Shown here piece after piece: positions 22,775-29,902 of a stretch of 64,000 nucleotides of DNA; within the stretch, counting starts at the first letter, position 1, and each line of letters begins with the position of its first letter. This stretch comes from Oceanicaulis sp. BBD 1991-10 (GTDB taxonomy: Bacteria; Pseudomonadota; Alphaproteobacteria; Caulobacterales; Maricaulaceae). A program made the position numbers and the translations under genes. The DNA lies in contig LYSW01000012.1 in assembly GCA_001657295.1 (NCBI GenBank), positions 2,572 through 66,571 of the forward strand. Direction: 5' to 3'. Under the pieces are notes generated by a model. The model was not told where the DNA came from. It worked only from the letters and a program-made list of their open reading frames with translations, and searched no databases.

Positions 22775-22898
22775 AAAAAAAACGGTCAGGCGGCGGATTC
22801 GCCCGCGCTGTCGGGTTGCTTTCGTGTCGTTTCGGCTTGGTGTCGTGGCGCCGGGGAGACCTTTGGTGATCATCGAGATCACAGTGATGGAGACGAAG

Positions 22899-23381
22899 AT
22901 GAGCGTTCAATCCCTGCGCCGCGGCAAGGGCTGGTCCCAAGAGGATCTGGCGCTGCATGCCGGGGTGAGCGCACGCACCATTCAGCGGATCGAGGCGGGA
23001 CACGCCGCCAGTCTGGAAACGCTGAAATGTCTCGCCGCTGTGTTGGAGACCTCCGTCTCCGACCTGATCACGGAGAGCGACGCCATGAACACCACGCCCG
23101 AAAAGGACGCCGCCGCGCGGCTGTCCACGCAGGAAGCTTCAGCCATCAGCTGGGTGAAGAATCTGCGCGCTTTTCACCTGCATTGGATCAGCTATCCGCC
23201 CGTCATGGGCATCTTGCTGATCCTCAACCACATCCTGATCCAGGAGATGGACATCATCATTCTGATCGGCTCGGTCTGGGCGGGCGCGATCGTCCTGCAC
23301 GCGGCCATTCTGTTCGGGTTTTTCGGACTGTTCGGCGCGCAATGGGAGCAGCGCGAATTCAGGAAACGGCTGGGACGATAG
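22899..23381 (+). CDS. XRE-type HTH protein with C-terminal 2TM domain
   Basis: 160 residues from ATG 22899 (GGAG six bases upstream). N-terminal Cro/C1 HTH: LRRGKGWSQEDLALHAGVS-ARTIQRIEAG, then a linker and two transmembrane helices (PPVMGILLILNHILIQ and WAGAIVLHAAILFGFFGLFG) forming a 2TM domain. A membrane-tethered DNA-binding protein is implied. A second protein of the same plan is encoded at 46835-47281. No obvious partner gene; the 124 bases upstream have no clear promoter. Confidence 0.82.
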   Translation: MSVQSLRRGKGWSQEDLALHAGVSARTIQRIEAGHAASLETLKCLAAVLETSVSDLITESDAMNTTPEKDAAARLSTQEASAISWVKNLRAFHLHWISYPPVMGILLILNHILIQEMDIIILIGSVWAGAIVLHAAILFGFFGLFGAQWEQREFRKRLGR

Positions 23382-23926: not shown

Positions 23927-24895
23927 TCAGGCCCGGAGTCCGGCCGCCAGCGCCGCTTCGCGGGCGGCGCGCAGCTGTTTGAAATCATCGCCGGCATGAT
24001 AGCTGGAGCGGGTCAGCGGCGTCGCCGAAACCATCAAGAAGCCCTTGGCGCGGGCGATGGTCTCATAGCCTTTAAACTCGTCCGGCGTGACATAGCGGTC
24101 GACGGCCGCGTGCTTGCGGGTCGGCTGGAGATATTGACCGATGGTCAGGAAGTCGACGCCGGCGGAGCGCATATCGTCCATCACCTGCATCACCTCTTCC
24201 TTGGTCTCGCCCAGGCCGACCATGATCCCCGATTTGGTGAACTGGCTGGGATCGCGTTCCTTGACCCGCTCTAAAAGGCGCAGCGAATGGTAATAGCGCG
24301 CGCCCGGGCGGATCGAGAAATAAAGCCGCGGCACGGTCTCCAGATTATGGTTGAAGACGTCCGGCTTGGCGTCGATGACGATCTCGGCCGCGCCGTCCTT
24401 GCGCAAAAAGTCCGGGGTTAAAATCTCAATCGTCGTCTTGGGATTATGCGCCCGGATTTGACGGATCACCTCGGCGAAATGCTCCGCGCCGCCGTCTTCC
24501 AGATCGTCGCGATCGACCGAGGTGATGACGACGTGCTCGAGCTCCATGGCGGCGGTGGCTTCCGCGACCCGGCGCGGCTCGTCGGCGTCCAGGGCGCCTG
24601 GCAGGCCGGTCTTCACATTGCAGAAGCTGCACGCCCGGGTGCAGGTGTCGCCCATGATCATGAAGGTCGCGTGTTTTTGCGACCAGCATTCACCGATATT
24701 GGGACAGCCCGCCTCTTCGCACACGGTGACGAGATTATTCTCCTTCACCGTCTTGCGGGTCTCGGCGAAGACGCCGCCGGCGGGCGCTTTGACGCGGATC
24801 CAATCGGGCTTGCGCTGGACCGGCGTGTCGGGGCGCTTTTGCTTTTCCGGATGCCGGGCCGCACGCGCGGACTTCATATCGAGCAAGGTAGCCAT
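23927..24895 (-). CDS. lipA: Lipoyl synthase
   Basis: 322 residues from ATG 24895; the ORF track adds 39 residues upstream. Radical SAM enzyme that inserts two sulfurs into octanoyl groups on 2-oxoacid dehydrogenases. The radical SAM cluster motif [13 protein letters not shown] and the auxiliary cluster [13 protein letters not shown] are intact, and the Arg-Ser-Ser-Tyr tail [11 protein letters not shown] carries the serine ligand. Followed at seven bases by the COQ10-like gene. Confidence 0.96.
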
Positions 24896-25173
24896 GGGCG
24901 CACATATGAACCTGTCCGGCGCTGGGTTCAAGCTGGAGGGTGCGCGCGTTTTTCTGGTCTCCTTCGCCTCCGCTCTGTCGGGGCCTCGCTTGCCGCGAGC
25001 CAGCTCGCTCATGCTGCGGGCGGCGGTTCGCGTTGCGAGCGCTCCGCGCCCGGTCAGGAGCGTCCTGCTCCCTCAGCGCCGCAAAAGCTTCGCGATGGTC
25101 TCCAGCGGTCACGGCTTGCTGCGGGGGCGGACATCGCGCCCGACCGAACGGATGTGAGGCGGGACTAAGCAGA
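24896..25173. other. Non-coding gap between lipA and the beta-repeat membrane protein
   Basis: About 280 GC-rich bases. Several open frames cross it, but none has family signal or a ribosome site. It should contain the lipA promoter at its left end and ends in the terminator of the minus-strand gene to the right. I see nothing else. Confidence 0.6.
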
Positions 25174-25244: not shown

Positions 25245-26489
25245 TTAAACGGCGCCAGCCTCGAGGGGTTCCGCATTCGGGCGGTGCCGGTCGAAGATCG
25301 CCAGCGCCCAGGCGCCGAAGCCCAGGAAGGTGACGATCAGCCCCACCAGCAGCCCGATCGGGGGCACCACGTGCAGGGCCGCGATCACCAGCAGCACGGC
25401 GAGCAGAGAGCCGATGCGGATCAGCAGGCCGGCCCGGTCGCCGGAGCGGTTGAAGATCATGTCGCCGACCACCACGCCGCCGAAGATGTAGGCGAGGAAG
25501 TAGACGAAGGGGATCGCCAGGATCACGAAGGGCGTCAGCAATGCGCCGATGATGGTGATCGCCAGCAGCACGGCCAAGGTCAGCAGCAGCATCCACATGG
25601 TCGCCCACAGGATCAGGCCCAGACCCGCCGACACCCAAGGCCGCGCGCGGAACCGGTTGGACATCCGTGCCAGCGAACGCGGGAAGAGCAGCGCGATGAA
25701 CAGGCCCAGGATGAAGGCCGCCGAGCCATAGAGCGCGCCCACCGCCCAGAAGCCGGGAAAGATATCGACCGGGACATCGAAATCATGGTCGATCCGGCTC
25801 TCGTCGAAGCGCTCTTCGATATACTCGATCTCCGGCACCTGGGCGCCCGCTTCAATGACCGGCGCGTTCGGGCCGCGCACCGTGATCGGGCCGACGATCA
25901 CGGCGTCCGGGCCGATCGTCACGTCGCGGGCGTAAACCTCGACCCGGCCGTCAAACACGCCGCCCAGAACCAATTCGTCCGCGGCGATGTCGACCGGGCC
26001 GACAAAGCGGCCTTCGGCCAGCACGGCGTCGCCCTGAAGCGTCGCCGGCCCGTTGACCACTGCGGTGCGCTCGACATGAACGACGGCGCCGGCGGATTCC
26101 AGCTCGCCGCCGATCAGGCCGGTGATGTTCACATCCGCGCCGAAGGCGGCCAGATCGCCCATCACATTGGCGCCCACCGACACGTCGGCGCCGGCGGTGG
26201 CCGCATCGCCCATGATGTCGCCGTTCAGGGTGATGTCGGCGCCGAAGGCTGCGACGTCGTTGCCCGCATCGACATTGATGTCGATATCGGCCGCGAACAC
26301 GGCCAGATCGCCGCCGACACGCCCGGTCACATTGGCTTCGGCCGCAAACACGGCCTGGTCGCTATTGGTGTCCAGATTGATGTCGACTTCGCCGCCGAAA
26401 TACTGCGCGCTTGCGCCAGCGGCCGCGAGGCCGGTCAGGCTGGCCGCGGCCAACGCCGCCGTGAAGATCGAATTGAGTTTCCTGAACAT
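25245..26489 (-). CDS. Exported bactofilin-like beta-repeat protein with C-terminal membrane domain
   Basis: 414 residues from ATG 26489 (MFRKLNSIFTAALAA, signal peptide ending ASAQ). Residues about 30-210 are a polymer-forming repeat: units such as DVAAFGADITLNGDIMGD and DLAAFGADVNITGLIGGE recur about every 18 residues, as in right-handed beta-solenoids of bactofilin type. The C-terminal half has about five hydrophobic helices (ALYGSAAFILGLFIALLF onward). So the solenoid is predicted periplasmic with an inner membrane anchor, unlike cytoplasmic bactofilins. Four bases downstream of a lipoprotein of the same repeat type, so one operon. Function unknown. Confidence 0.8.
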   Translation of the reverse strand: MFRKLNSIFTAALAAASLTGLAAAGASAQYFGGEVDINLDTNSDQAVFAAEANVTGRVGGDLAVFAADIDINVDAGNDVAAFGADITLNGDIMGDAATAGADVSVGANVMGDLAAFGADVNITGLIGGELESAGAVVHVERTAVVNGPATLQGDAVLAEGRFVGPVDIAADELVLGGVFDGRVEVYARDVTIGPDAVIVGPITVRGPNAPVIEAGAQVPEIEYIEERFDESRIDHDFDVPVDIFPGFWAVGALYGSAAFILGLFIALLFPRSLARMSNRFRARPWVSAGLGLILWATMWMLLLTLAVLLAITIIGALLTPFVILAIPFVYFLAYIFGGVVVGDMIFNRSGDRAGLLIRIGSLLAVLLVIAALHVVPPIGLLVGLIVTFLGFGAWALAIFDRHRPNAEPLEAGAV

Positions 26490-26493
26490 GGCT

Positions 26494-27324
26494 CTAGCCC
26501 TCCCAGCCGCGTTCGCACCGTTCGCCATTGCGGGCGGTGAATTGGATGTCGGCGGCTGATCCGCCTTGAATTTCAGGCTCTGCATCGGCGGTGAGGGCCA
26601 ACGGCCCGGTCACCTGCCCTGTGATGACGACGGTGCGCGCGCAGATGCGCCCGCCGCCAATTCGGCCGTTGATCTCCACCAGCCCGTCCTCGGCGTTCCA
26701 GGGCCGCCGGCCCGGATCGACCGACAGGCGAACTTCGCCGTCGACATCGCCGTTAAGCTTGGCCGTCCGGGCGCTCAGCGTCAGATCGCCGCCGACCCTG
26801 CCGTCATGAATGAAGTCGGCCGCAGCAGCCTCCAGCGAGCCGGAGATTTCCGCGTTCCGGGTGATCTCGACATCAGCGGCGCTGATATCGATTTCGGTGA
26901 ACCGTCCCGACAGCTCCGCGTCTGCGGACTGGGCGGAAAAGCGACCGCCGACGCTGCCGTCAAACACAAGATCGGCGGCCGCGATCTCCACGTCGCCGCC
27001 GACCGGACCCTCCCAGCGCACATCAGCGCCGGCGATCTCCACGTCGCGGTCCACAGCGCCGGTGAAGCGCACATCCGCGGCGGCGACCGACAGGCTGCCC
27101 GCCTGCAGGTCATTGGCGCGGAAGTCCGCACTGACCACGCTGACTTCGCCGCCGGCGCGTCCGGACGCGGTGATGTCCGCGCCCACCAGGCTGGCGTCGC
27201 CATCGGTGCTCAGCACCGAATCTCCAGAGGCGAAATAACCGCCGCCTCCGCCTGCTCTGACTTCAATACATCCACCGAGCATGACGGCGGTCGCCGCGGC
27301 GGTGGTGAGGAGGAATCGTCTCAT
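26494..27324 (-). CDS. Bactofilin-like beta-repeat lipoprotein
   Basis: 276 residues. Signal peptide with a good lipobox (MLGGC), then a Gly-rich linker (GGGGGYF) and about 190 residues of short repeats: DVEIAGADVRWEGPVGGD, DVEIAAADLVFDGSVGG. These alternate VEIxxAD with xGxVGG and fit a beta-solenoid. A C-terminal unit has two cysteines (GGGRICARTVVITGQV and GERCERGW). The same end pattern occurs in the 27522-28208 protein, so they are paralogues. Likely periplasmic, membrane-anchored. The promoter region holds an array of palindromes. Confidence 0.78.
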   Translation of the reverse strand: MRRFLLTTAAATAVMLGGCIEVRAGGGGGYFASGDSVLSTDGDASLVGADITASGRAGGEVSVVSADFRANDLQAGSLSVAAADVRFTGAVDRDVEIAGADVRWEGPVGGDVEIAAADLVFDGSVGGRFSAQSADAELSGRFTEIDISAADVEITRNAEISGSLEAAAADFIHDGRVGGDLTLSARTAKLNGDVDGEVRLSVDPGRRPWNAEDGLVEINGRIGGGRICARTVVITGQVTGPLALTADAEPEIQGGSAADIQFTARNGERCERGWEG

Positions 27325-27347
27325 CGGGTTTTGTCTCCCGTTTTTCT

Positions 27348-27423
27348 ATATGGGACCAACCATATCGAAACTCGATATCATATCGAAACTCGATAACAAA
27401 CACTTTTTTTCGATTTTCGATAA
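27348..27423. promoter_or_regulatory. Operator array: repeated TATCGA-N3-TCGATA palindromes
   Basis: ATATCGA-AAC-TCGATAT at 27362-27378 is a perfect 7-bp palindrome. It recurs 18 bases on (27380-27396, last base changed), and a degenerate third copy TTTCGA-TTT-TCGATA is at 27408-27422. ATATGG-N6-CCATAT at 27348-27365 overlaps the first. The array lies 24-99 bases upstream of the lipoprotein ATG in AT-rich DNA, so it should control the two-gene operon 27324-25245. The regulator is not in the window. Confidence 0.6.
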
Positions 27424-27465
27424 ATTTATTCCGCTGATCGATAAGGCGATACGCCTCTGAAACAC

Positions 27466-27496
27466 GAAAAAGGCCCGCGTTTTCAACGCGGGCCTT
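27466..27496 (-). terminator. Rho-independent terminator after the 27522-28208 gene
   Basis: AAGGCCCGCGTT-N3-AACGCGGGCCTT, a perfect 12-bp stem; on the minus strand it is followed by a run of T (CCTTTTTCG). It sits 25 bases past the stop of the lipoprotein gene and separates it from the downstream operon. Confidence 0.85.
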
Positions 27497-27521
27497 GCCT
27501 TTGAGGGGAGGAAATGGAGCG

Positions 27522-28208
27522 TTACACTTCGTCGCAGCGTTCGCCGTCTCTCGGGCGGTAGTCGACCAGGCTGGAGTCGAATCCGTCGCGGTAGCGCGGG
27601 GCTTCGTCCGCGATGACCGTCACCGATTCGCCGAGAACCGCGTCCCGCCCGAAGGTGACTTCGTGGGCGCAGATCTGACCGCCGGCGGCCAATTCGCCAT
27701 AGATTCGCACTTCAGATCGGTCCGAGCGCTCCCGGCCGAACATGGTGCGCGTGCGGCCCGATCCGGCGATTTCGACCGGCCCGTCGGCGCGGCCGCGAAA
27801 TTCGATCGAGCCGCCATTGGCCCGCAAGCCGGAAGCGAACTCGCCGCGAAACTCGATCGAGCCGCCATTGACATAGACATCGCCGGCGTATTCGCCGGTG
27901 AGGCTCACAGCGCCGCCATTGGCTTCGCTGTCGCCGCCCACGGAGCCGCGGATCTCAACGGCGCCGCCATTGGCTTCCAGGTCGCCGCCGATATCGGCGT
28001 CGACATCGACCGACGCGCCGTTCATTTCGACCCATCCGCCGACCCGTCCGCGCAGCGTGATCGCCGCCCCGTTCATGGCGACATTCCCGTCGGTGTCGAC
28101 CGTCCGGCTGCCAGCCAGGCCGTCGAACGTCGTCGTCGGCCCGTCCTGCGCCTGAACACAGGCTGTGGCCAGCAAAGCGGCGCTCGCCGCCGTCATCAGG
28201 GGTCTCAT
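27522..28208 (-). CDS. Bactofilin-like beta-repeat lipoprotein, paralogue
   Basis: 228 residues. N-terminus MRPLMTAASAALLATACVQA is a signal peptide with lipobox LATAC. The central part repeats ANGGAVEIRGSVGGDSE, ANGGAVSLTGEYAGDVY, VNGGSIEFRGEFASGLR and ANGGSIEFRGRADGPVE, about 19 residues per unit, a regular beta-solenoid pattern. The C-terminal block GGQICAHEVTFGRDAVLGE and final GERCDEV resemble the end of the 26494-27324 protein, with the same two cysteines. Has its own terminator and probably its own promoter. Function unknown. Confidence 0.78.
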   Translation of the reverse strand: MRPLMTAASAALLATACVQAQDGPTTTFDGLAGSRTVDTDGNVAMNGAAITLRGRVGGWVEMNGASVDVDADIGGDLEANGGAVEIRGSVGGDSEANGGAVSLTGEYAGDVYVNGGSIEFRGEFASGLRANGGSIEFRGRADGPVEIAGSGRTRTMFGRERSDRSEVRIYGELAAGGQICAHEVTFGRDAVLGESVTVIADEAPRYRDGFDSSLVDYRPRDGERCDEV

Positions 28209-28486: not shown

Positions 28487-29902
28487 CTAGTAGTGGATGA
28501 CCTGCCCGTACGCGTCGAGCACGCTTTCATGCATCATTTCGCTCAAGGTCGGATGCGGGAAGATGGTGTGCATCAATTCCGCTTCCGTGGTCTCCAGCGT
28601 CTTGCCCACGACATAGCCTTGAATCAGCTCGGTGACCTCCGCGCCGACCATATGGGCGCCGATCAGCTCGCCGGTCTCGGCGTCGAATATCGTCTTGATC
28701 AGGCCCTGGTCTTCGCCCAGCGCGATCGCCTTGCCGTTGCCGACGAAGGGGAAGCGGCCGACCTTGATCTTGCGCCCCGCCTCCTTGGCCCTGGCCTCGG
28801 TGAGGCCCACCGAGGCGACCTGCGGGTGGCAATAGGTGCAGCCGGGGATATTCTCTTTGACGATCGGATGCGGGTTCTTGCCGGCGATCGCCTCCACGCA
28901 GATCACGCCCTCATGACTGGCCTTGTGGGCGAGCCAGGGCGCGCCGGTGACGTCGCCGATGGCGTAGAGCCCCGGCACGCCGGTGCGGCCATAGCCGTCG
29001 GCGACCACATGACCGCGATCAATCTTCACGCCCAAGGCCTCCAACCCCAGACCTTCCACATTGCCGGTGATGCCGATGGCGAGGATGACCTTGTCGACGC
29101 TCACGGTTTCCGTCTTGCCGGATTTGAGCGCGATGCCGGCTTTCACGCCGGAAGCGGACTTCTCCAGTCCTTTGACCTGAGCTTCGGTGTGTAAGGTCAG
29201 ACCGCGCTTCTTGAAGACCTTGGCGGCGAAGGCGGAAATCTCTTCATCCTCCGCCGGCAGGATGCGGTCGACCATTTCAACGACCGTCACGTCCGCGCCC
29301 ATGGCGGCGTAAAAGCTGGCGAACTCCATGCCGATCGCGCCCGATCCGATCACCAAAAGGGATTTCGGCATGGCGTCCGGCGTCATGGCTTCCTTATAGG
29401 TCCAGACATGCTGGCCATCGGCCTCCAGGCCGGCCGAAGGAATGGTCCGCGCCCTTGCGCCGGTGGCGAGGATGACATGCTTGGCGGCATAGCCCGTGTC
29501 CTTGCCGTCCTTGCCTTTGACGATGACTTTCGGAGCCGCAGCCCCCGTCTCCAGGCGCGCTTCGCCGTCGATGACGGCGATCTTGTTTTTCTTCATCAGC
29601 CCGGTGACGCCGGAGGACAAACGCCCCGCCACCTTGCGCGAGCGCTTGACGACCTTGTCGAGATCAAAGCCGATATTGTCGGCCTTCAGCCCGAATTCCT
29701 CGGCGCGGTGGAACAGCTCGTAGATATCGGCCGTGCGCAGCAGCGCCTTGGTCGGGATGCAGCCCCAGTTCAGGCAGATGCCGCCCATATGCTCGCGTTC
29801 GACCACGGCGGTCTTCATGCCCAGCTGCGCGGCGCGGATCGCCGCCACATAGCCGCCCGGCCCGCCGCCGATGACGATGAGATCAAACTGTGTCGCAGAC
29901 AT
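28487..29902 (-). CDS. lpdA: Dihydrolipoyl dehydrogenase (E3)
   Basis: 471-residue FAD enzyme that reoxidises lipoamide in 2-oxoacid dehydrogenase complexes. FAD site VIGGGPGGYVAAIRAAQLG at the N-terminus, redox-active disulfide GGICLNWGCIPTKALL, NAD site VIGSGAIGMEFA, second FAD motif YAIGDVTGAPWLAHKASHEG, and the C-terminal HTIFPHPTLSEMMHE with the catalytic His-Glu. In many alphaproteobacteria lpdA is followed directly by lipA; here the three beta-repeat genes lie between them. No pdh genes in the window. Confidence 0.95.
   Translation of the reverse strand: MSATQFDLIVIGGGPGGYVAAIRAAQLGMKTAVVEREHMGGICLNWGCIPTKALLRTADIYELFHRAEEFGLKADNIGFDLDKVVKRSRKVAGRLSSGVTGLMKKNKIAVIDGEARLETGAAAPKVIVKGKDGKDTGYAAKHVILATGARARTIPSAGLEADGQHVWTYKEAMTPDAMPKSLLVIGSGAIGMEFASFYAAMGADVTVVEMVDRILPAEDEEISAFAAKVFKKRGLTLHTEAQVKGLEKSASGVKAGIALKSGKTETVSVDKVILAIGITGNVEGLGLEALGVKIDRGHVVADGYGRTGVPGLYAIGDVTGAPWLAHKASHEGVICVEAIAGKNPHPIVKENIPGCTYCHPQVASVGLTEARAKEAGRKIKVGRFPFVGNGKAIALGEDQGLIKTIFDAETGELIGAHMVGAEVTELIQGYVVGKTLETTEAELMHTIFPHPTLSEMMHESVLDAYGQVIHY

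Follow-up and report, generated by a model that had tools for sequence, protein, structure and literature searches.

Exported bactofilin-like beta-solenoid proteins with a predicted inner-membrane core in Oceanicaulis and other Maricaulaceae

The locus

The window considered here, a stretch of 64,000 nt from Oceanicaulis sp. BBD 1991-10 (GCA_001657295.1, contig LYSW01000012.1, positions 2,572-66,571 of the forward strand), harbors three neighboring minus-strand genes whose products combine bactofilin-like beta-solenoids with signals for export. P0001 (25245..26489) consists of a signal peptide (approximately residues 1-28), a solenoid (30-225), a linker, five transmembrane (TM) helices, and a C-terminus predicted to be cytoplasmic; it contains no cysteine. 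P0002 (26494..27324) is a predicted lipoprotein (lipobox LGGC, Cys19) with a bactofilin-like solenoid and the C-terminal pair Cys228/Cys270, and P0003 (27522..28208) is a second predicted lipoprotein (ATAC, Cys17) with a beta-solenoid and the C-terminal pair Cys180/Cys225. An original prediction, made from the DNA alone, had proposed these genes as a trio of exported bactofilin-like proteins, and all three open reading frames (ORFs) were confirmed at the coordinates it gave. The start codon of P0001 is most likely the one at 26489 (MFRKLNSIFT...) rather than the start at 26585 chosen by the ORF finder.

Repeats, fold and membrane topology

A repeat period of 17 residues emerged for all three proteins from lag-identity analysis, with identities at lags 17/34 of 0.25/0.23 (P0001), 0.22/0.17 (P0002), and 0.30/0.26 (P0003). 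In none of the three proteins did any of 1000 shuffles reach, at whatever lag, the identity observed at lag 17; the repetitive character that the original prediction had recognized therefore stands, while the unit is 17 residues long and not 18-19 as it had stated. The structure prediction it had called for returned solenoids for both proteins modeled. For P0001, AlphaFold, supplied with a 17-sequence alignment, places strands over residues 30-225, mostly at a predicted local distance difference test score (pLDDT) of 82-97, and P0003 is modeled as a beta-solenoid with a mean pLDDT of 87 and a predicted template modeling score (pTM) of 0.79.

The C-terminal part of P0001 is modeled as helices at 247-268, 270-282, 284-311, 313-346, 355-372, and 376-402. 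Since the helix at 270-282 is a charged stretch (RSLARMSNRFRARP), the TM helices are counted as five (247-268, 284-311, 313-346, 355-372, and 376-402), in keeping with the multi-helix membrane domain expected for one member of the trio. The basic loops 270-284 and 347-358 share one side of the membrane with the C-terminal tail; by the positive-inside rule this side is the cytoplasm, which puts the solenoid in the periplasm. The export signal, fold, and topology together make a periplasm-facing solenoid of P0001 well supported by prediction. No accepted Pfam match covers the membrane domain, and a sub-threshold hit of the TM part to Acyl_transf_3 (20.6 bits against a cut-off of 31) was dismissed.

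Export signals and conserved cysteines

The N-terminus of P0001 runs from a basic into a hydrophobic segment and ends in GASA-Q, a signal-peptide site of the AxA-Q type, with A28 invariant and A26 nearly invariant among 15 homologues. The lipobox of P0003 is exchanged for an ordinary signal-peptidase-I site in four relatives (L099, L101, L104, and L105), so lipidation of the P0003-type member is predicted not to be universal. Apart from the lipobox residue, P0002 and P0003 possess exactly two cysteines each, both close to the C-terminus, and the pair is invariant in the 12 aligned P0002-type and the 11 aligned P0003-type sequences. The two lipoproteins with a common Cys-bearing end that had been noticed from the DNA are thus recovered by lipoboxes and alignments alike. 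As an invariant cysteine pair in an oxidising compartment is naturally read as a disulfide cap, the solenoids of P0002 and P0003 are probably sealed at this end by the pair. In Escherichia coli, the +2 rule directs lipoproteins with Ile or Val at this position to the outer membrane. Extrapolated from this rule, P0002 (+2 Ile) and P0003 (+2 Val) would probably be delivered to the outer membrane.

Relation to bactofilins and other solenoid families

Pfam and profile matches link the proteins to the bactofilins. P0002 scores 30.4 bits with PF04519, above the Pfam cut-off of 27.9, and P0001 reaches 25.4 bits, below it; 14 of the 15 P0001 homologues match the family at E<=0.1 (best 7e-11), and all 12 P0002 homologues have a match to it. 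P0003 has no PF04519 match of its own, and seven of its 11 aligned members do. Searched against the PDB, the P0001 profile found BacA (2n3d, E=5e-4) and the Thermus bactofilin (6ria, E=7e-4), and the top Foldseek match of its model is a bactofilin as well (6rib, probability 0.93, E=0.35). A sequence match of P0003 to nanobodies in the PDB was judged a compositional artefact. The bactofilin-like solenoid fold and the export foreseen by the original prediction are accordingly borne out by the matches, the models, and the signals.

The likeness to bactofilins (PF04519; Caulobacter BacA and Thermus ThBac) thus extends over repeat pattern, beta-solenoid fold, and profile similarity, with a bactofilin-type core present in the AlphaFold models of P0001 and P0003. 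Canonical bactofilins, however, are cytoplasmic and bear a short N-terminal membrane-targeting peptide (PMC12448750), whereas the members of the trio are all predicted to be exported, each with a signal peptide or lipobox, and carry in addition a cysteine cap or a C-terminal TM domain. The same genome encodes one strong canonical bactofilin (L001 on contig C30, 94.7 bits), its only one, which begins with MFTKKD and has no signal peptide; the trio is therefore not simply the bactofilin of this organism. L001 adjoins an M23-peptidase-like gene, and in Hyphomonas a bactofilin has been described that acts together with an M23 endopeptidase (PMC10945521).

TM bactofilins such as CcmA of Proteus mirabilis, which account for approximately 3.2% of bactofilins (PMC12448750), resemble P0001 in joining a bactofilin domain to membrane segments. 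The described examples, however, have N-terminal TM helices and are treated as polymers at the cytoplasmic membrane (PMC12448750), whereas the five-helix domain of P0001 is C-terminal and its solenoid is predicted to lie outside. 'Polymer-forming cytoskeletal protein', the default database name for such proteins (e.g. a Peptoclostridium plasmid match), likewise suggests polymers inside the cytoplasm, at odds with the export signals of the trio.

Bactofilins polymerise without nucleotide (PMC12448750). This property, together with the bactofilin signal in sequence and fold, favors the periplasmic or cell-surface polymer with inner and outer anchors that the original prediction had proposed, in which successive solenoids would join at their ends to give filaments or a lattice. 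A filament of P0001 solenoids is possible. The invariant cysteine pair at the end of both lipoprotein solenoids is nevertheless likely a cap, a mild argument against filaments, and the solenoid of P0001 continues into its TM domain, so end-to-end filaments of the bactofilin type become less likely; in addition, the members differ in length and are lost individually. Such a polymer is considered improbable.

Toastrack/LiaF-LiaG envelope-stress proteins (DUF2154, DUF4097, and DUF2807; PMC11237479) also couple a beta-helix to a multi-TM region and are linked to transcription and membrane stress. Toastrack domains are argued to be intracellular (PMC11237479), unlike the periplasmic solenoid predicted here, and none of the partners PspC, LiaI-LiaF-TM, or PadR-HAAS was seen at the locus. 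Membership in Toastrack/DUF2807 was rejected, with P0003 at 11.1 bits against a cut-off of 24.2 and no match for P0001 and P0002.

The closest solved fold to P0003 in Foldseek is the secretion-domain beta-helix of HxuA (probability 0.90, E=0.064, not significant), a faint likeness that would suit ordinary secreted beta-helix adhesins or autotransporter-like surface proteins. No translocator partner, however, was seen beside the genes, no Pfam domain of adhesins or two-partner secretion reaches its cut-off in P0001-P0003 or the scanned neighbors, and P0001 is predicted to be held in the inner membrane by its TM helices, which makes an adhesin function highly unlikely.

Distribution and evolution

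A first contig scan with P0001 alone as query gave no matches; an alignment query retrieved 20 loci, all from Maricaulaceae or alphaproteobacterial metagenome-assembled genomes, with Oceanicaulis, Alkalicaulis, Glycocaulis, Maricaulis, and Hyphobacterium among them by name. Every one of the 15 genomes sampled from the genus has P0001, as do 7 of the 19 genera sampled from the family. Among 22 family genomes with P0001, the full trio is found in 11, P0003 with an eroded P0002 in three, P0001 with P0002 in one, and P0001 alone in seven. The eroded forms (genomes G002, G009, and G010; L092:8186-8668, L096:7703-8194, and L097:7523-7825) have lost the solenoid and kept the signal sequence and lipobox, that of G002 (L092) also the terminal NGERC. 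The trio as originally conceived hence holds for half of these genomes, and only P0001 is constant.

Beyond the family, profile matches place the P0001-type combination of solenoid and TM domain in 39 of 385 sampled genomes of the class, the source genome included (~10%), and G455, a single sampled genome from beyond the class, also encodes a P0001-like protein. P0002 and P0003 were found in Maricaulaceae only, where they are often lost, and P0001-like genes outside the family have no lipoprotein partner within 1.5 kb. In a solenoid tree, approximate since repeats were aligned, P0002 and P0003 form one clade (support 0.996) apart from P0001; by sequence, they are a paralogous pair, and P0001 is the core of the module.

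Its retention as the sole member in seven genomes supports P0001 as a core able to act alone. Carried further, P0001 might by itself be a membrane channel, transporter partner, or sensor with the solenoid as lid or receptor, and P0002/P0003 minor accessory paralogues: it is the only constant part and the only one found in other families, and prolines and glycines of its TM domain are kept across the class (P284, G291, G315, P376, G379, G390, and G392). The class-wide conservation shows, however, no evident catalytic or ion-binding pattern in this domain, and the lipoproteins, where present, retain their invariant cysteines and synteny, which renders a function of P0001 alone rather unlikely, though conceivable.

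A tandem palindromic operator

The perfect palindrome TATCGAAACTCGATA, for which shuffles give an expectation of 0, occurs in two copies upstream of P0002, at 27363..27377 (approximately 39 bp from the start codon) and, at a pitch of 18 bp, at 27381..27395. A degenerate third site, TTATCGAAAATCGAAAA, follows at 27407..27423, and most relatives have an imperfect form of it. Both copies are present at the locus in 14 of the 15 genus genomes and one copy in the fifteenth; they precede P0002, or P0001 in genomes that lack P0002. Sixteen genomes from four genera share the tandem block TATCGAGTTTCGATATGnTATCGAGTTTCGATAnGGTTGGTC almost without change, with variable flanks. A single exact copy is present in Hyphobacterium, and the copies of Maricaulis are exact or differ at one position. 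Exact sites elsewhere are few per genome, and a reversed control yielded almost none. No sigma-70 consensus promoter was found; overlap of the operator with a promoter is suggested by its distance of approximately 39 bp from the start codon. Literature matches to the string TATCGA were cloning primers.

Two hairpins resembling intrinsic terminators, consensus matches only, lie on the minus strand, 3' of P0003 (27470..27496) and 3' of P0001 (25180..25209); the former splits lpd/P0003 from P0002-P0001.

A similar site, TTATCGANNNTCGATAA, precedes a gene for a 60-residue membrane protein of the superinfection-immunity type (PF14373, 4e-20) in this and related genomes, a gene that adjoins one for an acyl-CoA synthetase. 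The palindrome TATCGANNNTCGATA would accordingly define a tiny putative regulon, with the tandem sites at 27360-27396 and a single site at L114:1501-1515 (contig C41) before the PF14373 gene.

Two candidates for the operator-binding regulator were discarded. The tandem operator is present in G009 and G013, two genomes at least 94% complete in which no PadR match reached E<=0.001. The XRE protein P0004, encoded beside another occurrence of the motif, is not the general regulator, as it is absent from this genome, where it has only weak helix-turn-helix (HTH) matches.

Elsewhere in the window (22824-23381), a Cro/CI-type HTH is fused to a 2TM domain, possibly as a membrane-tethered regulator; no homologue of this protein occurs at the sampled trio loci.

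Position between lpd and lipA

Identified from sequence, the flanking genes, both on the minus strand, encode dihydrolipoamide dehydrogenase (lpd, 28487..29902), the conserved upstream neighbor, and lipoyl synthase (lipA, 23927..25012), the conserved downstream neighbor. The order lpd-[P0003-P0002]-P0001-lipA recurs within the family; at five loci (L094, L095, L098, L100, and L101), two genes, one for an M1-peptidase-like protein (~813 amino acids) and one for a DUF6702 protein, immediately follow P0001 and precede lipA.

In two other families, a lone P0001-like gene stands directly before a lipA-type radical-SAM gene (L185, L202, and L203; L209), with an additional lpd-type gene upstream of it at L209, and in two further families a P0001-like gene adjoins lipB (L199; L206 and L208). 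Lipoylation genes neighbor 7 of the 35 P0001-like loci examined, far above chance for a handful of neighbors in a 3000-gene genome, although the loci are non-independent and the lipB part is post hoc; the other 28 have unrelated neighbors. Except for these, no clear recurring partner was found beside P0001-like genes in other families.

This recurrence could indicate that the module, as part of the lpd-lipA cluster, has a function tied to lipoate/pyruvate dehydrogenase supply and helps to link the envelope to lipoylation or to acyl metabolism. Against such a coupling stand the loci with unrelated neighbors, the lack of any obvious lipoylation step for a membrane or periplasmic scaffold, and the sufficiency of an inherited operon position as explanation; it is thus regarded as very unlikely, and the lpd/lipA position may be inherited rather than functionally shared.

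As an observation apart, triples of exported ~200-amino-acid proteins adjoin lpd in several relatives (L093:3447-5303, L096:10564-12385, L097:3234-5075, and L100:12988-14844). The one scanned (L093:3447-4055) contains a phage tail-collar domain (PF07484).

Proposed function and significance

Tentatively preferred is a periplasm-facing docking scaffold or envelope-state sensor with P0001 as core, optional lipoprotein partners, and inducible control by a repressor. The signal peptide of P0001 would carry the solenoid to the periplasm, with the five-helix domain holding the protein in the inner membrane. P0002 and P0003, predicted lipid-anchored solenoids probably closed by their cysteine pair, would be delivered to the outer membrane and might dock on the P0001 solenoid as optional partners, P0001 being able to act in their absence. 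A regulator that binds the tandem palindromes over the presumed promoter, most likely as a repressor, would switch P0002-P0001, and an operator shared with the PF14373 gene would suit an inducible response for envelope maintenance, possibly under stress.

Several observations weigh against this proposal. The Foldseek E-values for 6rib and HxuA fall short of significance. A strict three-part machine is unlikely, given the erosion of P0002 in three genomes and the lack of P0003 in others. Both regulator candidates, PadR and the XRE protein P0004, fail by absence, and the lpd/lipA position could be a sign of a role in central metabolism, or of nothing.

In line with the undescribed system that the original prediction suspected, no description of the module was found in the open literature searched, and a recent survey discusses no membrane-bound bactofilins other than cytoplasmic-membrane proteins whose helices are N-terminal (PMC12448750). 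A bolder proposal sees periplasm-recruited bactofilin solenoids as envelope scaffolds of a new class, in which the inner-membrane core protein is widespread in Alphaproteobacteria, outer-membrane lipoproteins of Maricaulaceae bridge the two membranes, and control lies with a dedicated operator; it is speculative and on balance unlikely.

Bactofilins have been studied as internal scaffolds; the proteins described here point to a branch that carries signal peptides, faces the periplasm, and has a membrane domain as yet without a name, in approximately 10% of the sampled alphaproteobacterial genomes, and for many proteins the label 'polymer-forming cytoskeletal protein' is perhaps misleading. With three genes, one operator, and culturable Oceanicaulis and Maricaulis, the module is a tractable system for learning whether structures beyond the cytoplasm are built from the bactofilin fold as well.

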